A DNA stretch of 64,000 bases from Desulfurobacteriaceae bacterium (GCA_027051905.1 JALUGO010000007.1:1-64000); one strand, 5' to 3'; counted from the first letter of the stretch, positions 3,213-12,186 are shown. Numbers and translations are program-made. The notes: a model not told the origin generated them from the sequence alone.

Positions 3213-3241
3213 TTGACATGTAAAATATTAGAGGCTAAAAT
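3213..3241 (+). promoter_or_regulatory. sigma-70-type promoter for the octaheme cytochrome gene
   Basis: TTGACA at 3213-3218, a 17-base spacer, and TAAAAT at 3236-3241. The -35 is a perfect consensus match. It lies about 40 bases before the start codon at 3283. I see no clear FNR-type TTGAT-N4-ATCAA site around it. Confidence 0.8.
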
Positions 3242-3282
3242 CTATTTCTGAATAGAATACCACTCTTATGAAGGAGGGAAAC

Positions 3283-4659
3283 ATGAAGGGGAAGCTCAGC
3301 AAGCTTCGCACAGGGCTGCTTGCTGTAACCTTCGCTGCAGCAGCAGTGATTGGTCTTAATACTACCGATTCTCAAGCAGCCCTGAGAAACATCTCCAAAG
3401 AGTCTCAAGCGTGCCTTGGCTGTCACAAAGGAATGAACCCTGCTCTCGTTCAGCAGTGGGGTGTCAGCAAGCACGCTGAGGCTGGAGTTGGCTGTTACGA
3501 GTGTCACATGGCCAACAAGGGCGACAAAGACGCCTTCCAGCACTTTGGATTTACAATCTCCACAATCGTATCTCCTCTCGACTGTGGAAAATGTCACCCC
3601 AAAGAAGAGAAAGAGGTTACAGAATCCCACCATGCAAAGGCTGCTCAGTTCGTAGGTTCTCTTGACAACGTTCTCGGAAGAATCGTTGAGGGTGAGCCTC
3701 TCTTCAACCTTGGTTGTGCGCAGTGTCACGGTAGAACAATTCCTGTTAAGAACGGAATGCCCGTTCTTGGTCCATGGCCTAATGAAGGTGTAGGTAGGGT
3801 TAACCCAGACGGCTCCAAGGGTAACTGTGCTGCTTGCCACTACAGGCACAGCTTCAGCCTCAAGCAGGTTCGTGAGCCCGACATGTGTGGTAAGTGTCAC
3901 CAGGGTCCCGACCATCCACAGATTGAAATCTGGTCTCTCTCTAAGCACGGTATCGCTTACAAGGCTCACAAGTCTGAAATTGAGCAAACACTTGACAGGG
4001 CTAAGTGGGTTCTCGGAGAGGACTACTACCAGGCACCAAACTGTGTAACATGTCATATGGGAGCTTCTGTAACAGGTGCTAAGGCTACTCACGATGTTGG
4101 AGCAAGGCTCTCCTGGACACTCCGTCCGCCAATCTCCAAGCACAAGCCTAACTGGCAAGCTAAGCGTGCTGAGATGAAGAAGGTTTGTGCTGCTTGCCAC
4201 CAGAGGGTATGGGTAGAAGGTTTCTACTACCAGTTTGACAACCTCGTAAACCTCTACAACACCAAGTTTGCAATTCCTGCTAACAAGATTATGAAGTTCC
4301 TTAAGAGCAGGAAGCTCATCGATCCAACACCATTCAACGAGAAGATCGAGTGGACATACTTCCTCCTCTGGCACCACGAAGGACGTAGGGCACGTCACGG
4401 TGCTTCTATGATGGCTCCCGACTGGACACACTGGCATGGTCTTTTTGAAGTTGCTGAAAGGTTCTACTTTGAACTTATCCCTGAAGCTGATGAGATCGTT
4501 AAGGAGAAGGGTTCCAGGGCTGATAAGAAAGCCTGGGCTGAGTTCAAGAAGCAGCTCTTCAGCAAACCTGAGCACAAGTGGTTCAAAGGTATGCCAAAGT
4601 CTGAGCTCAGGAGGATTGCTGAGTTTTACATGAAGCGTTACGGACAGACTGCTCAGTAA
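3283..4659 (+). CDS. octaheme c-type cytochrome, hydroxylamine oxidoreductase family (probable nitrite-to-ammonium or hydroxylamine enzyme)
   Basis: A 458-residue exported protein with a signal peptide ending near residue 32 (DSQA) and exactly eight CxxCH sites (CLGCH, CYECH, CGKCH, CAQCH, CAACH, CGKCH, CVTCH, CAACH). Spacing and the late motif RRARHGASMMAPDWTHWHG place it in the HAO family rather than among octaheme nitrite or tetrathionate reductases. With nap genes beside it, it most resembles the reductive HAO of nitrate-ammonifying thermophiles, thought to take nitrite through hydroxylamine to ammonium. ATG at 3283 is chosen because AAGGAGGG precedes it; ATG at 3268 would put that Shine-Dalgarno inside the gene. 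C-ending codons are frequent, suggesting high expression. Confidence 0.87.
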   Translation: MKGKLSKLRTGLLAVTFAAAAVIGLNTTDSQAALRNISKESQACLGCHKGMNPALVQQWGVSKHAEAGVGCYECHMANKGDKDAFQHFGFTISTIVSPLDCGKCHPKEEKEVTESHHAKAAQFVGSLDNVLGRIVEGEPLFNLGCAQCHGRTIPVKNGMPVLGPWPNEGVGRVNPDGSKGNCAACHYRHSFSLKQVREPDMCGKCHQGPDHPQIEIWSLSKHGIAYKAHKSEIEQTLDRAKWVLGEDYYQAPNCVTCHMGASVTGAKATHDVGARLSWTLRPPISKHKPNWQAKRAEMKKVCAACHQRVWVEGFYYQFDNLVNLYNTKFAIPANKIMKFLKSRKLIDPTPFNEKIEWTYFLLWHHEGRRARHGASMMAPDWTHWHGLFEVAERFYFELIPEADEIVKEKGSRADKKAWAEFKKQLFSKPEHKWFKGMPKSELRRIAEFYMKRYGQTAQ

Positions 4660-4675
4660 TTTTGCTATCATTTCA

Positions 4676-4700
4676 GGGGGAGCTCCGTCTCCCCCTTTTT
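4676..4700 (+). terminator. intrinsic terminator after the octaheme cytochrome gene
   Basis: Stem GGGGGAG (4676-4682) pairs with CTCCCCC (4689-4695) around a six-base loop and is followed by TTTTT at 4696-4700. It lies 16 bases after the cytochrome stop codon. It contains a GGAGCTCC octamer (4679-4686). Confidence 0.85.
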
Positions 4701-4724
4701 AATTCTTCCCTCCTGGAGGTTATT

Positions 4725-5630
4725 TTGAGAAAAACCTTAATTGCCCTTCTAATAGCTGCCCTTTCTGTTTCTCCCTCTTTAAAAGCAAAAGAGGCAGAAT
4801 TTGCAAAAAAAATTGAGAAGAAAATTACATGTCCTGCAAGTTTCTTAAACAATCCTCCGGTTTATTTTTACTGTATTTATAGAGACTACCACAATCACAA
4901 ATATGATGAAGGTATAGAAAAAGCAAAAAAAGCACTAAAAGAAATAGAACCTCTTCTAAAGGAAAATCCAGACGGGATGGTTCCGAATGCTGTTCAGAAG
5001 AACGCAAAATTGAGAGATCCCCACGTAAAGTCTGTTGCTTCAGACCTCCACCTGCTTTTGGGAATGCTTTATTTCAAGAAGTCTGTTAATATGGATAACT
5101 CTTCAGTAAAAAAAATTTATGCTGATTTCTTCTCAAAACTTGAAAAGAAGGGATTTGATTTCTTTCAGATAAGTGAACTCATGAATTTATACAGTAAGAA
5201 AAAACTGTTTCCTGAGGAATTTTCAAAGCAGGATGAGAAGAAGTATTCTGAGCTTTTAAAGAAAATGGGGCTAAAAGAAAGTGATTTGGATAGACTTATG
5301 GTTGATGCTCAGAAAGAGTCTAACAGGCTGGAGAAAGAGAGATTCTCATACATGCAAAAGGCTGTAAAAGAGTTCCAGGAGGCTGTAAAGATAGATCCTA
5401 ACAACGCTATGGCTTACTATCAGTTAGGTAATCTTTACAGTGGCGTTTTAAGTGAAGGAATGCCTCAGGATTCCCCTGCCGCTGAGGAAGCATACTACAG
5501 AGCTGCTGTTCTCTTAAAAGAGCAGGGGGATATGGCTGGATACAGGGAAGTTGTTAAAAAGTTAAAGATCTTGAATCCCAATTCCGAATACCTTAAAAAG
5601 TTGAAAGAGAAGAGCGGAAGGGATGCTTAG
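4725..5630 (+). CDS. exported TPR-repeat protein of the hao-nap island
   Basis: A 301-residue, lysine-rich, mostly helical protein with an N-terminal signal peptide (MRKTLIALLIAALSVSPSLKA). A tetratricopeptide-like stretch lies near residues 220-255 (AVKIDPNNAMAYYQLGNLY), and another helical pair, LHLLLGMLYFKKSVN, is at about 105-120. I do not recognise a characterised family. TTG at 4725 is chosen because GGAGGT at 4715-4720 precedes it and a signal peptide follows directly. It overlaps the next gene by 8 bases. Position between the octaheme enzyme and napC suggests a periplasmic assembly or docking role for multihaem cytochromes; that is inference. Confidence 0.65.
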   Translation: MRKTLIALLIAALSVSPSLKAKEAEFAKKIEKKITCPASFLNNPPVYFYCIYRDYHNHKYDEGIEKAKKALKEIEPLLKENPDGMVPNAVQKNAKLRDPHVKSVASDLHLLLGMLYFKKSVNMDNSSVKKIYADFFSKLEKKGFDFFQISELMNLYSKKKLFPEEFSKQDEKKYSELLKKMGLKESDLDRLMVDAQKESNRLEKERFSYMQKAVKEFQEAVKIDPNNAMAYYQLGNLYSGVLSEGMPQDSPAAEEAYYRAAVLLKEQGDMAGYREVVKKLKILNPNSEYLKKLKEKSGRDA

Positions 5631-6123
5631 GTTTGTTCTGCCTTTACTTGTTTCTCTCTTTTTCATATCCTGTGGGGGAACCCAGCAGAGAGTTTCTATA
5701 AAACCTCTTCTTACCTCTCAACCATCACCTTTAGACAGGAAGATTTCAGGTGGGGGACCACAGGAGCTCCCCGTTTCTTCCCCCATTAACCCTGAAAAAC
5801 TTGACCTCTGCACTCGCCATATACTCTTTGCGGATCAGTATATTACAGCTTCAGATTATCCTGGAGCAGCTGAAGAGATAAAAGAGGCAGAAAAATACTG
5901 CTCTCCAGATGATCCCCGTCTTATCTACATGAAAGCAGTTCTTGCAGACATAAATGAAAATAAAAGTAAAGCATATAAACTCTACTACCGTGCTGCCAGG
6001 AAGTATATAGAAAAAGGGGACTTTGACAGTGCTTTTAAGTGTTACTCAGGTATGGTTTCTATAAATCCAGATGGGAAAGAAGTAAAAGAACTTAGAGTTT
6101 ACTTCGAGGATGATAACTATTGA
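5623..6123 (+). CDS. TPR-like lipoprotein of the hao-nap island
   Basis: A 166-residue protein with a lipoprotein signal peptide: a hydrophobic run followed by the lipobox FISC, with Cys near residue 17. After a Pro/Ser-rich linker, residues about 60-155 form helical pairs resembling two to three TPR repeats (YPGAAEEIKEAEKYC, DFDSAFKCYSGMVSINP). The ATG overlaps the end of the preceding TPR gene, so both proteins are probably made together. Membrane anchoring plus TPRs suggests a scaffold for the periplasmic electron-transfer proteins encoded around it. No named family recognised. Confidence 0.65.
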   Translation: MLRFVLPLLVSLFFISCGGTQQRVSIKPLLTSQPSPLDRKISGGGPQELPVSSPINPEKLDLCTRHILFADQYITASDYPGAAEEIKEAEKYCSPDDPRLIYMKAVLADINENKSKAYKLYYRAARKYIEKGDFDSAFKCYSGMVSINPDGKEVKELRVYFEDDNY

Positions 6124-6148
6124 AAACTGAATAGATTTCTGGTAAAAT
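6120..6148 (+). promoter_or_regulatory. promoter for napC-napM-napA with extended -10
   Basis: TTGAAA at 6120-6125 overlaps the stop codon of the upstream lipoprotein gene. After 17 bases comes TAAAAT at 6143-6148, preceded by TGG (6140-6142), an extended -10. The napC start lies about 50 bases downstream. Confidence 0.7.
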
Positions 6149-6159
6149 TTTATTGCTTC

Positions 6160-6175
6160 ATAAGAAATTACTTAT
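6160..6175 (+). promoter_or_regulatory. imperfect inverted repeat in the napC leader
   Basis: ATAAGAAATTACTTAT: arms ATAAG and CTTAT are perfect around a six-base centre. It falls just after the predicted transcription start of the napC promoter, a typical place for an operator or a weak leader hairpin. It does not match the FNR or Fur consensus. Confidence 0.35.
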
Positions 6176-6199
6176 AGACTCTAATAAAAGGGGGTGGAA

Positions 6200-6763
6200 G
6201 TGACGGAGAAGAGAAAGGCATTTATAGTAGGTGGTATTGTTGGTATCGTTATTGCAGGAGTTGGAGCCCTGATTTCTGCTCAAATGATCGAGAACACGGC
6301 AGAGCCTGAGTTCTGCGGTTCATGCCATGAGATGAAACCTATGTTTGAGGCTTGGGAGTCAGGTCCTCATGGTCCACTTGGTAACAAGAGAGGGGCTATC
6401 AGAGCTGGTTGTGCTGATTGCCACTTGCCCCATACCAGTGTGGTAGCATATTTACTTAATAAGACAAAGTTTGGAACGAACGATGCTATTGCACACTTCT
6501 TTAAAGGTGGTTATGCCGACGATCTTGACCACTGGATTGAGAAGAGAAAGGAAAGAGACCACTACGTCTTTGTTTCCAACTGCGAGAGGTGTCATACAAA
6601 CCTTCCTGACAATGTTATGCATGAAAAACTCAAGTCGGGAGAAATTAAGGGGGACTGTCTTACCTGCCACTGGTATGTTGGTCACGGGTTTGACTTTGAA
6701 GGGAAATTAAAAGAATTTTTTGGCAAGAAAGAGGTAAAATCTGAAGGAGAAGGGCACGAATAG
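6200..6763 (+). CDS. napC: NapC/NrfH-family tetrahaem quinol dehydrogenase
   Basis: Membrane-anchored cytochrome that oxidises menaquinol and passes electrons to periplasmic reductases. One N-terminal membrane segment (about residues 7-30) is followed by four haem sites: CGSCH, CADCH, CERCH and CLTCH. The 187 residues match the NapC/NrfH family. GTG at 6200 is preferred because AAAGGGGG precedes it at a normal distance; GTG at 6194 is also in frame. It is followed by napM and napA, so it may feed NapA directly or also serve the octaheme enzyme, as NrfH-type proteins serve nitrite reductases. Confidence 0.9.
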   Translation: MTEKRKAFIVGGIVGIVIAGVGALISAQMIENTAEPEFCGSCHEMKPMFEAWESGPHGPLGNKRGAIRAGCADCHLPHTSVVAYLLNKTKFGTNDAIAHFFKGGYADDLDHWIEKRKERDHYVFVSNCERCHTNLPDNVMHEKLKSGEIKGDCLTCHWYVGHGFDFEGKLKEFFGKKEVKSEGEGHE

Positions 6764-6786
6764 AACACTTATAGGGGAGGTGCAAA

Positions 6787-7203
6787 GTGAAAGTGAAAAC
6801 GTTATTGCTGCTTGCCGGCCTGATGATAGCCGGAAGCGGGCTGGCAATGGCAGACCAGCACCCAGTTCCACCCAGCGTCATTCAAAAATTACCCCCTCAA
6901 CAGCAGCAATGTAGAGCCTGTCATCAGCAGACAACACCAAAAGTTTACGAGCAGTGGGCCCATTCAAAACACGCTATAGCAAACGTTCGCTGTTTCCAGT
7001 GTCATGGAACACTTGGGAACTTCCATAAGACTCCACCTATAAAGAAGTGTATGGCCTGCCACTATCAAGAAGTTGTAACCATGCAGAAGAAGAAACCAGG
7101 CTTTAAGTGCTGGGATTGCCACGAAGCTCACATCTTTGAGTTCCATGGTAACGGTGTGAAGAACATTAAGTCAGCTAAGGACTTTAACCCACAACAGTAT
7201 TAA
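6787..7203 (+). CDS. napM: periplasmic tetrahaem cytochrome NapM
   Basis: A 138-residue secreted protein with a signal peptide ending near residue 22 (GLAMA) and four haem sites: CRACH, CFQCH, CMACH and CWDCH. Size and position directly before napA match NapM, which replaces NapB as electron donor to NapA in several ammonifying bacteria. GTG start at 6787 with GGGGAGGT upstream. There is no NapB-like dihaem gene in the cluster, which supports a NapC-NapM-NapA path. Extra His residues between the motifs could be distal haem ligands. Confidence 0.85.
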   Translation: MKVKTLLLLAGLMIAGSGLAMADQHPVPPSVIQKLPPQQQQCRACHQQTTPKVYEQWAHSKHAIANVRCFQCHGTLGNFHKTPPIKKCMACHYQEVVTMQKKKPGFKCWDCHEAHIFEFHGNGVKNIKSAKDFNPQQY

Positions 7204-7217
7204 TTAAGGAGGGCACG

Positions 7218-9863
7218 ATGGGAATTGGAAGGAGAGAATTCCTCAAAAAGAGTGCTGCTCTAACAGCAGCATCTCTTGTGGGGATTAACCTTAAGATAAA
7301 AGGAGACGGAGTAACCCTTGGAGAGTCTGCATCTGCAGGCGAAAACCTTATGAGAATACCTGAAGAGGTTAAGAAGTCTCCCGCTTTTAAGAAGGAAGGG
7401 GGATATACCTGGGTAAGGGGTGTATGCCGTTTCTGCGGAACAGGTTGTAAGGTCTGGCTTGGTTTTAAAGATGGTAAGCCTGCAGTTATAAGGGGTGAGA
7501 AAAATTCTGCCATCAACTTTGGTTTTCTCTGTATGAAAGGAATGCTCTTTTACAAGATCTTCAGGCACCCAGACAGGCTTACACAGCCTCTCTACAGGAA
7601 GAGCAAGAAAGAGCCTTTCAAGCCAATTTCCTGGGAGAAGGCCTATGAGATTATTGCTGATGAGATGATCAAAGCTATTAAGAAGGGTGAGTGGACACCG
7701 TTTGGATGGTCTGGAATTGCCTACTACGGTTCCGGACAGGCTCTAACAGAGGAGACATACCTCTTCCAGAAGCTCTTCAGGTGTATCGGAACAAACCACG
7801 TTGAGGGTAACCCAAGGCTCTGTATGGCATCTGCAGTTGGCGGATACCTCACATCCTACGGAACAGACGAACCAGCTGGTGGATACGCAGACTTTGATAA
7901 AGCCCAAACAGTGTTCATCATCGGTTCAAACACTGCTGAGTGTCACCCGATCCTCTACCGTCGTATCATGCACAACAAGCTCAAGAATCCCGGCGGTTAC
8001 ATGGTAATTAACGTTGACCCCAGGGTATCTCCTACATCAAAGATTGCAGACATTCATATGCAGTTTAAGCCGGGAACAGACCTTGCTCTTCTTAACGCTA
8101 TCGCCCACGTAATTGTTAACGAGGGACTTTACGATAAGGAGTTTGTGAGCAAGTACTGTTCCTTCCATATCTTTACAAAGGGTAAGGATAAAGTTCCTCT
8201 TATTGGACACGAAGTTTCCTTTGAAGAGTATAAGAAGTTCCTCCAGAAATACACACCTGAGTATGCTGCCCAGATCTGTGGTGGAAACATCACGCCGGAG
8301 ATGATCCGTAAAGTTGCAAGGCGCTTTGCTACAACAAGAACTGTTTCCATCTGGACAATGGGTCTCAACCAGAGAACCCGTGGTGTATGGGTTAACAACC
8401 TCGTTACAAACCTCCACCTCTTAACAGGAAACATCTGTAAAGATGGTGCAGATGCCCTTTCACTTACAGGTCAGCCAAACGCCTGTGGTGGTGTTCGTGA
8501 AGGTGGTGGACTTTGTCACATCCTTCCAGGACACAGGGTTGTTAAGAGTAAAGCTGACAGGGAAAGCCTTGAGAAAATCTGGGGAGTGCCAAAAGGGACT
8601 ATTCCTCCAAAGCCTGGATACCACACTGTTAAGATGTTCTCCGCTATCTCTTACACAGAGCAGGACAGGAAGAGATTTCCAGGCCTCAAGCCTATCCATT
8701 TTATCTGGATTGAGGAAACCACACCGCTGCAGTCTCTCCCTAACGTTAGAAGGTTCCGTGAAGGATTTGCAAGGGATGACGTTTTCGTAGTTGTTAACGA
8801 GATATTCCCAACAAGGACAACAGAGTTTGCAAACCTGATTCTCCCAACACCGTTCCACTTTGAAAAGACAGGTGTTTACGGATGTACAGAACGTCGTTCA
8901 CAGTTAACTCCTGTTGCAGTTAAAGCTCCTGGCATGTGTAAGCCTGAACTCCAGATCATCGTTGAGTTTGCCCAGGTTCTTGCTAAGAAACTCAGAAGGG
9001 AGCGTGATCCGAAACTCCGTGCAAGGGCACACACTGTTTACCAGTGCGTAGCTCCGTTCATTGAAGCTGCCAAGAGAGACCCATGGTGGGAGCTCCCCAA
9101 AGCTGTTTGGACAGAGTATGCTCAGCATGTAACTAAAGGAAGAGACTCTACACTTGCCGGTGCTACATATGAAGTTCTTCTTGAAAGGCCAGACGGTGTT
9201 CAGTGGCCTGCACCAACTGTTGAAATTGCAAGGAAGGGAGGAACCCTTAGAAGGTTTGTTGTTGGGAAAGACCCACTTGCTACAGAGTTTGTCAAGAAGC
9301 ATGGACTTGAAGGCTGGAAAGTTGTTGACTACGGTCACCTCCATAAAGACCACAAGTTCTGGATCTGGCTCAGACCTTACAAGGGTCCTGCTGAGCCACC
9401 AGATGCTGAGTATCCGTTCTACCTGTCTACAGGTAGGGTTATTGATATGTGGCACTCCGGTTCTATGACTGGTCGTATCCCGGAGCTTGCCTCCGACTAT
9501 CCGTACGCCTGGGTTGAGATTAACCCGAAAGACGCTCAGCGTCTGGGTATCAATCCTGGTGATCTTGTCCTTGTTGAGACACGCCGTGGAAAGAACATCC
9601 TTCCCGCAAGGATCTCCACTGACGAAGGTCCGATGGAAGGAATGGTCTTCGTCTATTGGTACGACCAGCACAAGGACAGAATGATTAACTTCTGTACGCT
9701 TGACGCCTTTGACCCAGGCTCCAAGCAGCCTGAGTTCAAGATCTGTGCATGCCGCATCAAGAAATACGCTCCTGCTCAGCCACTCAAGCAATACCTCGTT
9801 AAGCTCGTCAAGGTTAAAGGTGGCTACCTTCACAACGCTGAACTCGATCCTAACCAGAAGTAA
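7218..9863 (+). CDS. napA: periplasmic nitrate reductase catalytic subunit
   Basis: Molybdenum bis-MGD enzyme reducing nitrate to nitrite. The N terminus carries a twin-arginine signal (GRREFLKK at residues 4-11). The [4Fe-4S] cysteines are in CRFCGTGCK (about 71-78) and GFLCMKG (about 105). The likely Mo-ligand cysteine is in the NPRLCMASA segment near residue 200. The 881 residues fit NapA with a few lineage insertions. It sits 14 bases after napM with an AAGGAGG site and ends at a strong terminator. NapD, encoded downstream, should bind the Tat signal, and TatA/TatC are encoded at 19.1-20.1 kb. Codon use resembles the octaheme gene and suggests strong expression. Confidence 0.95.
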   Translation: MGIGRREFLKKSAALTAASLVGINLKIKGDGVTLGESASAGENLMRIPEEVKKSPAFKKEGGYTWVRGVCRFCGTGCKVWLGFKDGKPAVIRGEKNSAINFGFLCMKGMLFYKIFRHPDRLTQPLYRKSKKEPFKPISWEKAYEIIADEMIKAIKKGEWTPFGWSGIAYYGSGQALTEETYLFQKLFRCIGTNHVEGNPRLCMASAVGGYLTSYGTDEPAGGYADFDKAQTVFIIGSNTAECHPILYRRIMHNKLKNPGGYMVINVDPRVSPTSKIADIHMQFKPGTDLALLNAIAHVIVNEGLYDKEFVSKYCSFHIFTKGKDKVPLIGHEVSFEEYKKFLQKYTPEYAAQICGGNITPEMIRKVARRFATTRTVSIWTMGLNQRTRGVWVNNLVTNLHLLTGNICKDGADALSLTGQPNACGGVREGGGLCHILPGHRVVKSKADRESLEKIWGVPKGTIPPKPGYHTVKMFSAISYTEQDRKRFPGLKPIHFIWIEETTPLQSLPNVRRFREGFARDDVFVVVNEIFPTRTTEFANLILPTPFHFEKTGVYGCTERRSQLTPVAVKAPGMCKPELQIIVEFAQVLAKKLRRERDPKLRARAHTVYQCVAPFIEAAKRDPWWELPKAVWTEYAQHVTKGRDSTLAGATYEVLLERPDGVQWPAPTVEIARKGGTLRRFVVGKDPLATEFVKKHGLEGWKVVDYGHLHKDHKFWIWLRPYKGPAEPPDAEYPFYLSTGRVIDMWHSGSMTGRIPELASDYPYAWVEINPKDAQRLGINPGDLVLVETRRGKNILPARISTDEGPMEGMVFVYWYDQHKDRMINFCTLDAFDPGSKQPEFKICACRIKKYAPAQPLKQYLVKLVKVKGGYLHNAELDPNQK

Positions 9864-9871
9864 TTTGTTTG

Positions 9872-9904
9872 GGGAGGGGCTAAAAGCCCCTCCCTTTTAT
9901 TTTC
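9872..9904 (+). terminator. intrinsic terminator after napA
   Basis: Perfect nine-base-pair stem GGGAGGGGC (9872-9880) / GCCCCTCCC (9886-9894) with loop TAAAA, followed by TTTTATTTT. It splits the nap genes into two transcription units. Confidence 0.93.
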
Positions 9905-9927
9905 CACGCTATATTTAACTTCCCGTA

Positions 9928-9933
9928 TATAAT
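9928..9933 (+). promoter_or_regulatory. -10 element of a probable napDGH promoter
   Basis: A perfect TATAAT lies 21 bases before the napD start and directly after the napA terminator. No good -35 is seen at 16-18 bases upstream, so it may need an activator. A new promoter is expected because transcription from napC should stop at the hairpin. Confidence 0.5.
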
Positions 9934-9953
9934 GAATTCCTGAGAGGTGTTTC

Positions 9954-10325
9954 ATGCCTATTGTGAGTTGTGTGGTTACTACTCTTCCTGAAAAGGGAAA
10001 AGAGGTAGAGAAAGAGCTTTTAAAAATTCCAGGTGTTGAAGTTTACGGAGGAGGTATTAAGGAGGAGGAAAACGCTTACCATATAATTGTTGTTCTCGAT
10101 GCTGAGCGTTATGCTGAGCTTGAGCAGATGGAAAAAGATATAAAGGCCATTGATGGCGTTCTTCAGCTTGCTGTCGTTGAGGCTCACTTCCTTGAGGAGT
10201 TTGAAAAGATAGAGGAAGGAGAAATTTACCCGATTAATCCATTTAGAGGACTCAGAAAGGCTGAAAAAGAGGCGGAAAGAGCTTGGCTTGGAGAAGATGA
10301 AAATGGAGAAAAAGAAGTTCATTAA
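9954..10325 (+). CDS. napD: NapD, chaperone for the NapA Tat signal peptide
   Basis: A 123-residue cytoplasmic protein. Its first 80 residues match the small NapD ferredoxin-like fold: N-terminal MPIVSCVVTTLPEKG, a GVEVYG strand, and ending in a GVLQLAVVEAHF strand. NapD binds the twin-arginine leader of NapA and holds it until the cofactor is inserted. The charged C-terminal extension (about residues 85-123) is longer than in enteric NapD. The gene overlaps napG by about 23 bases. Confidence 0.88.
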   Translation: MPIVSCVVTTLPEKGKEVEKELLKIPGVEVYGGGIKEEENAYHIIVVLDAERYAELEQMEKDIKAIDGVLQLAVVEAHFLEEFEKIEEGEIYPINPFRGLRKAEKEAERAWLGEDENGEKEVH

Positions 10326-10980
10326 AGAGAGAAGGCAATTTTTAAAAGTAACTCTTGGAACGTTTCTGTCGGGGGCTTTGACCTCTTGCGATCTTTCAAG
10401 GTTTAAAAATCCAAAAACAATGGTTAAATCACCTATTGGTCCAAATATCTTAAGGCCTCCTGGAGCGGTTTCTGAGGAGCATTTTGCTCAAAAGTGTATT
10501 CGTTGTGGTAGATGTGGAGAGGTCTGTCCCTATCACTGTATAAAGTATTTTGATATTAAGACGGGCGGAGTTTTTTCCGGAACGCCTTACGTTAATGTAA
10601 TGGAGAAGCCCTGTTACTTATGTATGAAATGTGTTTACGTATGTCCTACAGGTTCTCTTGTTCCGTGTGCGAAGGAAGACGTTAGGATGGGTGTTGCTGT
10701 AATTAACAGACAGATATGTGTGACCTGGCAGCAGCAGAAAACAGGACTTATGTGTAAAACATGCTTCTCTGTCTGTCCGTTTTCTGGAGTGGCTATAAAA
10801 ATTGACCATGATTTCAGGCCTTACATTGTTGAGGAATACTGCACAGGTTGTGGTATATGTGCTTATTCCTGTATAGCTGATACCTGGTATGAAAATAAAG
10901 GTAAGAAGGCAATAACTATAATGCCTATTAAGTGGAAGAAGATTAAGGAAATCAAGTTAGAGGACATTAAGAAATCCTAA
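10303..10980 (+). CDS. napG: NapG ferredoxin-type quinol-pathway protein
   Basis: Periplasmic iron-sulfur protein that works with NapH to move electrons from quinol toward NapA. It begins with a twin-arginine motif (ERRQFLK, about residues 10-16). Four cysteine clusters follow: CIRCGRCGEVC, CYLCMKCVYVC, CKTCFSVC and CTGCGICAYSC, enough for four [4Fe-4S] centres. The Tat leader ends in LTSC, which fits a lipobox, so the mature protein may be lipid-anchored. Start is uncertain among TTG 10288, ATG 10297 and ATG 10303; I prefer 10303 for Shine-Dalgarno spacing. Confidence 0.9.
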   Translation: MEKKKFIKERRQFLKVTLGTFLSGALTSCDLSRFKNPKTMVKSPIGPNILRPPGAVSEEHFAQKCIRCGRCGEVCPYHCIKYFDIKTGGVFSGTPYVNVMEKPCYLCMKCVYVCPTGSLVPCAKEDVRMGVAVINRQICVTWQQQKTGLMCKTCFSVCPFSGVAIKIDHDFRPYIVEEYCTGCGICAYSCIADTWYENKGKKAITIMPIKWKKIKEIKLEDIKKS

Positions 10981-10992
10981 AGAGGTGATAAG

Positions 10993-11856
10993 TTGGCCAG
11001 GAAGAGTTTCTGGAAAAGGATAACAATCTGGCGTTACCTTTTTCTTGCAGTCTGTTTTGTTATTGTTGTTGGAAACCCATTTACCAATTACTACTGGGAT
11101 ATAAACTTCATTCAGGGTTGGTTTCAATCGATAGGAGTGGGCAATTTATGGATTGTTTCTCCTCTTGAGGGTGTAGAATCGATACTTACAGCTAAGTTTT
11201 TCTACATGCCTTCTCTGGTTGGAATGGTTATTCCTGTTACCGTTGCTCTACTTATGGGAAGGGTTTTCTGTAGCTGGATGTGCCCTATTGAGTTCCTTTC
11301 ACTTTTGACGGATAAAATATTCGGGCTAATTCCTAAATGGGGAAATAAACTCAAATACAGACCTGACCTCATCCGTTTACCAAAGAGGTTTCTCTGGTTT
11401 GCTCTTGTTGCAGAGCTTCTCTTTACGATGATAATCGGTTACCCCCTCTTTGTCTGGTGGTCACCACCGGGTCTTGTTGGAAGGGAGACTATGTTTTACG
11501 TCTTCTACAAGCATGTAACCATCGAAATTGTAATTGTTATTCTGGTTCTTCTTCTCAATCTTCTGACACGTAGGCTCTTCTGCCGTTATTTCTGTCCTCT
11601 TGGGGCAACGCTTGCTTTGCTCGGTAAAAAGAGGCAGCTTGTTATCCACTACGATGCGTCTAAGTGTGTAGGCTGTAAAGTTTGTGATACGAGATGTCCT
11701 ATGGGTATTAAACCAAGCGTTGGTGAGAGCCAGACTGTTTACTGCTGGAACTGTGCCGAGTGTGTTGACGTCTGCCCCACAAATGCTTTGAACTTTACCT
11801 GGAGAGATAAAGGAGTTTTAAGGGTTACTCCGGGAGTGGTTAAGGTAAATGATTAA
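10993..11856 (+). CDS. napH: NapH membrane ferredoxin-type quinol oxidase subunit
   Basis: A 287-residue inner-membrane protein with about four membrane helices. Two membrane-side cysteine motifs are CSWMCP (about residue 92) and CRYFCP (about 198). Two C-terminal [4Fe-4S] motifs follow: CVGCKVCDTRCP and CWNCAECVDVCP. This is the NapH layout. It is thought to oxidise menaquinol and pass electrons to NapG. TTG start at 10993 with GAGGTG upstream, 12 bases after napG. No napF or napB gene is in the cluster. Confidence 0.92.
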   Translation: MARKSFWKRITIWRYLFLAVCFVIVVGNPFTNYYWDINFIQGWFQSIGVGNLWIVSPLEGVESILTAKFFYMPSLVGMVIPVTVALLMGRVFCSWMCPIEFLSLLTDKIFGLIPKWGNKLKYRPDLIRLPKRFLWFALVAELLFTMIIGYPLFVWWSPPGLVGRETMFYVFYKHVTIEIVIVILVLLLNLLTRRLFCRYFCPLGATLALLGKKRQLVIHYDASKCVGCKVCDTRCPMGIKPSVGESQTVYCWNCAECVDVCPTNALNFTWRDKGVLRVTPGVVKVND

Positions 11857-11869
11857 ACTTTTCTAATCA

Positions 11870-11898
11870 TTGCCAAACGTTTAGCTTTTTAATAAATT
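11870..11898 (+). promoter_or_regulatory. promoter for the small monohaem cytochrome
   Basis: TTGCCA at 11870-11875, 17-base spacer, TAAATT at 11893-11898, about 34 bases before the start codon. Confidence 0.55.
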
Positions 11899-11931
11899 GA
11901 TAGCTGGAAAATACCTTAAAGGAGGTAAGAA

Positions 11932-12186
11932 ATGAGGAAAGTTCTTGGAGCACTTGCAGTAGTAGCTCTTATGGCTGTTCCAGCTTCCGCTGGTGTATGG
12001 GAGACTCAGTGTGCTGGATGCCACAACGGCTCTATGGCTCCCTCAAAGGCTCAGCTGAAAGCAAAGTTTAAGAATGCAAAAGCTTTCGTAGATGCTGCTA
12101 AGAAGACAAATAATCCAATGATGGCTGCTGTCAAAAATAATGATGCTGCTCTTAAGGCTGCTGCCAAGGAGATATTTGGTAAGTAA
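11932..12186 (+). CDS. small monohaem c-type cytochrome
   Basis: An 84-residue secreted protein: signal peptide to about residue 20 (VPASA), then a mature part of about 64 residues with a single haem site CAGCH at about 27-31. Several Met residues after it could supply the sixth ligand (SMAPSK, NPMMAAV). This is class I, c553/c6-like, and rich in Ala and Lys. A strong AAGGAGGT site precedes the ATG. Next to napH with its own promoter, it is a candidate soluble carrier between nap components, the octaheme enzyme or other oxidoreductases. Confidence 0.8.
   Translation: MRKVLGALAVVALMAVPASAGVWETQCAGCHNGSMAPSKAQLKAKFKNAKAFVDAAKKTNNPMMAAVKNNDAALKAAAKEIFGK

Follow-up and report, generated by a model that had tools for sequence, protein, structure and literature searches.

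How do members of the Desulfurobacteriales take nitrite further once nitrate has been reduced? The nitrite-to-ammonium step without NrfA in Thermovibrio ammonificans and its relatives is a stated open question in the literature, and a block of genes in the genome G000 of a hot-vent Desulfurobacteriaceae bacterium (1.36 Mb, 84% complete) offers one candidate gene beside nap. In the window analysed here (bases 1-64000 of contig C7 of that genome), this block occupies positions 3213-12186 and comprises ten compact open reading frames, all on the + strand and spanning 3283-12186, in the order: an octaheme cytochrome of the hydroxylamine oxidoreductase (HAO) family, two tetratricopeptide repeat (TPR) proteins, a NapC/NrfH-type tetraheme cytochrome, a NapM-type tetraheme cytochrome, NapA, NapD, NapG, NapH and a monohaem cytochrome. 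Their CXXCH motifs total 17 (eight in the octaheme, four in each tetraheme protein and one in the monohaem cytochrome), confirming the haem count of a previous sequence-only reading of this DNA, together with its description of a compact block that includes two TPR genes and a monohaem cytochrome. The best explanation of this content is that the block would encode a periplasmic nitrate ammonification system, and we estimate at roughly three in four the probability that nitrite reduction would be the main role of the octaheme.

Among 24 Desulfurobacteriales genomes (G000 included), the same ten genes occur in the same order in 10 others, including the sequenced type strain T. ammonificans HB-1 (G013), in which the NapM-type protein in the corresponding position is 83% identical and NapA 90%. 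Because this order recurs in 10 other genomes, the arrangement is not due to chance. Fragments in G015, G017 and G018 agree with it, and G022, which belongs to a different family within the Desulfurobacteriales, displays octaheme-TPR-TPR-octaheme-NapC-NapM-NapA-NapD-NapG-NapH. The monohaem cytochrome is present in those clade-A octaheme clusters of the same family whose 3' end is assembled, and absent in G009 and G022. Since the left neighbour of the octaheme varies between genera and the right flank is often conserved, the octaheme forms the left border of the unit. The block is a real, conserved and coherent unit, in which the octaheme gene is linked in position to a Nap system lacking NapB, as had been proposed. 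Two other genomes bearing nap, G009 and G014, lack the window-type octaheme and carry an HAO-family octaheme of a different clade instead (divergent and beside napC in G009; on a contig that also bears the start of a NapC in the fragmented G014), which supports the pairing of octaheme and nap. In G004, whose assembly is 87% complete, nap, octaheme and NapC-type gene are all missing.

The best PDB match of the octaheme by sequence is the OCC of Ignicoccus (4qo5, E 3e-45), followed by HAO, HDH (hydroxylamine dehydrogenase) and HOX proteins. Foldseek also placed 4qo5 first, with the reducing HAO-like Kustc0458 of Kuenenia (6h5l) second, using a low-confidence AlphaFold model (pLDDT 60, without hemes) that served only for this family-level ranking. 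The protein was not recovered as an NrfA (19-20 bits with PF02335, against a cut-off of 24.1) or as an ONR/OTR (PF11783 had no match in G000, and ONR structures appeared in Foldseek only at E > 3). A cross-link tyrosine is present in oxidative HAOs and absent from reductive ones (PMC12758564, PMC8940962). The stretch of the octaheme matching this region is HGASMMAPDWTHWHG, and residues 360-394 contain no tyrosine in any register; the statement concerns the whole stretch, as the C-terminus of NeHAO was unaligned and the exact counterpart of its Y467 is not fixed. In our core-region tree, HAO, HOX, HDH and the Kuenenia reducing HAO (HAOr) form a supported group (98/87) and the window octaheme branches outside it. 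A tree constrained to unite the octaheme clade with the oxidative enzymes was 22 log-likelihood units worse, with a p of 0.067 in the approximately unbiased (AU) test of the core region. The phylogeny suggested by the sequence-only reading thus keeps the octaheme apart from oxidative HAO in the best tree, a placement that supports a non-oxidative protein and does not prove it. The following features of reductive HAO and of the reverse hydroxylamine:ubiquinone redox module (reverse-HURM) are found together here: an HAO-family octaheme with 8 CXXCH, no cross-link tyrosine, a quinol partner of the NapC/NrfH/cM552 type in the block, and the hybrid cluster protein (Hcp) in the genome.

Regarding the nitrate reductase part, NapA scores 550-590 bits with NapA profile models, under their cut-offs of about 900-930, and its best PDB matches are periplasmic nitrate reductase entries (2jio/2jim/2nap, E 6e-197). 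With a NapA retaining its Mo-Cys, NapD, NapG, NapH and NapM present and NapB absent, the block has the composition of a NapCMADGH system; the molybdenum enzyme, its chaperone and NapG/NapH, as named beforehand, are supported by profile and PDB matches. Profile searches retrieved neither NapB (PF03892) nor, over cut-off, NrfA (PF02335) in G000, and the lack of both reported for the block extends to the genome. The tetraheme protein at 6194-6763, previously called NapC, does belong to the NapC/NrfH family but appears nearer NrfH, as it scores higher with the NrfH model (TIGR03153, 85.5 bits) than with the NapC model (37.8 bits), under both cut-offs. It is the only PF03264 match in G000, and nearly all members have one match per genome.

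Which other protein could reduce nitrite? The sequence-only reading had advised searching the genome for nrfA, nirS/nirK and Hcp. In profile searches of the 24 genomes, there was no NrfA over the PF02335 cut-off, no NirK and no NirS over cut-off (cytochrome d1 model; two sub-cut-off matches, one of them in G000), while the siroheme nitrite/sulfite reductase model (PF01077) had no match, compared with 11 of 14 control genomes. Absences in G000, given its 84% completeness, were cross-checked in better-assembled relatives. T. ammonificans converts nitrate to ammonium (PMC5441870); in its genome NrfA, siroheme nitrite reductase, NirS and NirK are all without match, and its sole HAO-family octaheme and its sole NapC/NrfH protein are those of the block. 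Because this organism ammonifies without a match to any other nitrite reductase and its single octaheme belongs to the block, the octaheme is the likely candidate for that step. Hcp was indeed present in G000 (G000:C7:106356-108035, E 1.6e-149), on the window's contig and about 94 kb from the block, and it was found in 23 of the 24 genomes, nap-bearing or not. As it occurs regardless of nap, Hcp is compatible with a hydroxylamine route and gives no evidence for it.

The 2017 study of T. ammonificans proposed NirA (Theam_1000), which was seen in the proteome, and called the mechanism unresolved (PMC5441870). Nitrite could accordingly be reduced by this protein, or by Hcp combined with chemistry, with the octaheme only clearing leaked hydroxylamine or NO. 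HAO-family octahemes do reduce hydroxylamine and NO in vitro, and the wide presence of Hcp also favours this explanation. Nevertheless, we consider it improbable: PF01077 retrieved nothing in the 24 genomes of this order while matching most controls, siroheme-like cysteine patterns in the estimated Theam_1000 region of T. ammonificans (860-1000 kb, in which Theam_1000 itself was not identified) are confined to ferredoxin-type proteins, and Hcp is equally present in nap-less members. A slightly less probable idea is that the octaheme would be a sulfur-compound or metal reductase sharing neighbourhood and quinol dehydrogenase with Nap. Related octahemes in nap-less relatives would fit this idea, as would the tetrathionate or polysulfide kept as an alternative for the Thermosulfurimonas cluster (PMC5276818) and a Deferrivibrio octaheme, two loci from napA, that was read as an iron reductase (PMC11896075). 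However, octaheme and nap are linked repeatedly: in Desulfurobacteriales, in Verrucomicrobiota/Planctomycetota, where the quinol module differs, and in G009, where the octaheme is of a different clade. Moreover, no other nitrite reductase was found in the proven ammonifier T. ammonificans. An oxidative HAO (hydroxylamine dehydrogenase) would share the same fold family, and HDH and HAO profiles and structures do match the octaheme; yet the tyrosine-free cross-link region and the position outside HAO/HOX/HDH in the best tree make this role very unlikely. We know of no hydroxylamine source from which this strictly anaerobic family could draw energy.

Several observations should be weighed against nitrite reduction as the main role of the octaheme. 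HAO-family octahemes are multifunctional, and the case is made from sequence, which provides the gene identities, the conserved order, the absences, the missing tyrosine and the hairpins described below. The AU test gives no formal rejection of a grouping with oxidative HAO, and since Hcp is present independently of nap, nothing links its role specifically to the block. Nap and the octaheme co-occur (15/3/1/5, Fisher p 0.007), but this statistic takes no account of shared ancestry. Relatives lacking nap have similar octahemes too, among them an OCC-like protein of G019 that has an NrfH-type partner, and in G005, one of the ten other genomes with the conserved order, the assembled octaheme gene contains a frameshift (L106:11263-12638) that may be an error or decay. 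Finally, G000 encodes a second HAO-family octaheme outside the block (G000:C9:62656-63987; L118:5657-6988), so the claim that the octaheme is the sole visible candidate for the nitrite step holds within the block and fails genome-wide. The gene of this second protein (443 aa) stands alone, flanked by prfA and a radical-SAM gene, and the protein is closest to the Kuenenia reducing HAO 6h5l; among the 24 genomes, such an HAOr-like octaheme is present only in G000 and G001. Its motif FHISNDYMHWYG contains tyrosines, and its reaction could run in either direction.

For nitrite reduction by the block's octaheme, we infer its direction, substrate, product, partners and electron routing along the following lines. 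Quinol electrons would enter via NapGH and/or the single NapC/NrfH-type tetraheme cytochrome, and NapM, perhaps with the monohaem cytochrome, would pass them to a monomeric NapA reducing nitrate to nitrite. The simplest electron donor to the octaheme would be this same NapC/NrfH-type protein, of which the genome has no second copy, and the octaheme could take nitrite to ammonium directly, or to hydroxylamine finished by the cytoplasmic Hcp. The TPR proteins, one periplasmic and one a lipoprotein, would probably aid octaheme assembly or membrane anchoring; the predicted model of TPR1 is TPR-like and all-helical (pLDDT 87), and its structure search retrieved generic TPR proteins only. Of the complete nitrate-to-ammonium island claimed by the sequence-only reading, the tie of the octaheme to Nap and the lack of matches over cut-off to the other nitrite reductases searched for stand, whereas the pathway is at most putatively complete, and ammonium, hydroxylamine and NO are all possible products of the octaheme as far as the sequence tells.

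The block begins, at 3213, with the first base of the -35 hexamer before the octaheme gene and ends, at 12186, with the stop of the monohaem cytochrome gene (Table 1). The TTGACA-17-TAAAAT element is the region's best promoter-like site, and similar elements were seen by eye 5' of the octaheme gene in several relatives; the number of such sites is not above that of shuffles. A single simple operon was considered and dropped, as two strong and conserved terminator-like hairpins lie inside the block. All 11 genomes examined have one hairpin right after the octaheme gene (-14.4 to -24.3 kcal/mol) and another right after napA (-16.5 to -22.2 kcal/mol), with T tails and with stems differing in sequence. 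The first is also present in L073 and the second in G009 and G023. At the TPR2-napC and napH-cytochrome junctions of the 11 genomes there is nothing stronger than -7 kcal/mol, and among 200 resampled intergenic sequences a single one was as strong as -14 kcal/mol. Since terminator-like sites over the whole region are not above chance (12 against 9.5 expected), the hairpin claim relies on position, strength and conservation. These features suggest that the block is probably expressed as several transcripts and that the cell perhaps produces more octaheme and NapA than accessory proteins.

Table 1. Genes and putative regulatory elements of the octaheme-nap block (positions in the window)
Feature	Position	Strand	Evidence and remarks
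Sigma70-like promoter, TTGACA-N17-TAAAAT	3213..3241	+	directly 5' of octaheme gene; 11/12 consensus match
Octaheme cytochrome c, HAO family, 458 aa, 8 CXXCH, signal peptide	3283..4659	+	PF13447 78.8 bits; PDB 4qo5
Terminator-like hairpin 3' of octaheme gene	4675..4696	+	-14.4 kcal/mol, T tail
TPR protein 1, signal peptide, periplasmic	4725..5630	+	TPR Pfam matches; conserved next to octaheme
TPR protein 2, predicted lipoprotein (FISC lipobox)	5623..6123	+	weak TPR matches; lipobox-like N-terminus across unit members, by eye
Promoter-like TTGAAA-17-TAAAAT, 10/12	6120..6148	+	5' of NapC/NrfH gene; conservation not clear
Tetraheme quinol dehydrogenase, NapC/NrfH family	6194..6763	+	PF03264 78 bits; TIGR03153 85.5 bits
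NapM-type periplasmic tetraheme cytochrome	6787..7203	+	4 CXXCH; Cytochrome_C7
NapA, monomeric-type periplasmic nitrate reductase, TAT signal, Mo-Cys motif NPRLCMAS retained	7218..9863	+	
Terminator-like hairpin 3' of napA	9871..9895	+	-22.2 kcal/mol, T tail
NapD chaperone	9954..10325	+	PF03927 47.9 bits
NapG ferredoxin-type protein	10288..10980	+	PRK09476 129.8 bits
NapH membrane ferredoxin-type protein	10993..11856	+	TIGR02163 114.3 bits
Small monohaem cytochrome c	11932..12186	+	1 CXXCH; PF13442 25.6 bits

Further octahemes are encoded by nap-less Desulfurobacteriales. The G019 locus (L111:5390-8299) combines the OCC-like octaheme and the NrfH-type cytochrome with a split-Soret cytochrome c, and in G007 a pair of almost identical octahemes from another clade is encoded at sites separated by 227 kb (L113:4800-6389, L114:4665-6191).

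Outside this order, a contig binned as Thermodesulfovibrio (L073:1-2518) encodes an octaheme that is 68% identical to that of the window and whose start is missing from the contig; both TPR genes come next and nap is absent, which indicates that the TPR pair goes with the octaheme. An NrfC-like ferredoxin and an NrfD-like membrane protein are encoded in another 14 relatives, which belong to other phyla; in most cases a tetraheme cytochrome precedes them. The NrfC-NrfD pair is directly 5' of the octaheme in 13 of the 14 (L076-L080, L082-L086, L088, L093, L097) and elsewhere on the octaheme's contig in L089. In the tetraheme-NrfC-NrfD-octaheme clusters of Verrucomicrobiota/Planctomycetota, NapA is found downstream in L082, L083, L086 and L093, accompanied by NapD in the first three, and L088 retains a NapA remnant. 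By analogy, the octaheme beside NrfCD would occupy the slot of a terminal nitrite reductase such as NrfA. This distribution with nap and NrfCD points to an NrfA-independent nitrate ammonification that nrfA-based surveys would overlook. A bolder and rather doubtful possibility is that this clade represents, next to NrfA and ONR, a third kind of respiratory nitrite reductase forming ammonium, one that can be served by different quinol dehydrogenases (of the NrfH type in Desulfurobacteriales and of the NrfCD type in Verrucomicrobiota/Planctomycetota), and that with its two TPR partners and NapMA it forms one periplasmic nitrate-to-ammonium assembly with a single quinol entry protein.

In comparison with known systems, the napCMADGH genes of T. 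ammonificans are the same as those of the window, about 70-90% identical, with a monomeric NapA and no NapB, although the published operon omits the octaheme and the two TPR genes directly upstream and the main text does not discuss the octaheme (PMC5441870). The sequence-only reading stated that a reductive HAO pathway had already been put forward for Thermovibrio, but the literature searched contained no such proposal; the 2017 paper proposes NirA (PMC5441870). As in the reverse-HURM of Nautilia profundicola, Nap, an HAO-family octaheme without cross-link tyrosine, a NapC/NrfH-type cytochrome and Hcp are found together; in Nautilia, however, haoA (NAMH_1280) is far from nap (0553-0556), whereas all but Hcp lie in one block in the window (PMC3701875, PMC2628731). 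The I. hospitalis OCC and Kuenenia Kustc0458, the two best fold matches, are likewise octahemes with an HAO fold and no tyrosine in the corresponding stretch, but they are only about 26% and 20% identical in structural alignments and their gene contexts differ. Relative to NrfA/NrfH and Nrf(A)BCD, the partner is NrfH-like in the window and NrfCD-like in the Verrucomicrobiota/Planctomycetota relatives, while the catalytic protein would be an HAO-family octaheme. The octaheme of Deferrivibrio metallireducens (DSN97_05235, with DSN97_05245; PMC11896075), given its proximity to napA, may be another octaheme-nap arrangement.

The closest prior proposal is the octaheme-nap cluster of Thermosulfurimonas dismutans and Dissulfuribacter thermophilus, an 11-gene nitrate ammonification cluster in which nitrate and nitrite reduction were proposed to be encoded together in 2017, with the octaheme suggested for the nitrite step and the same authors keeping tetrathionate or polysulfide as alternative octaheme substrates (PMC5276818). 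Compared through its published description, this cluster resembles the block in its HaoA-homologous multiheme protein, its two periplasmic proteins of unknown function, which may correspond to the TPR pair, its napMADGH genes and its lack of NapB and NrfA. Its octaheme is accompanied by a transmembrane cytochrome, a 4Fe-4S protein and NrfD, and NapC is absent (PMC5276818). In contrast, the window has no NrfD or 4Fe-4S subunits beside the octaheme, and displays a NapC/NrfH-type tetraheme between TPR2 and napM as well as a monohaem cytochrome. Therefore, judged by its gene content, the block is a variant of the Thermosulfurimonas-type cluster in which a NapC/NrfH-type cytochrome would stand in for the NrfCD module.

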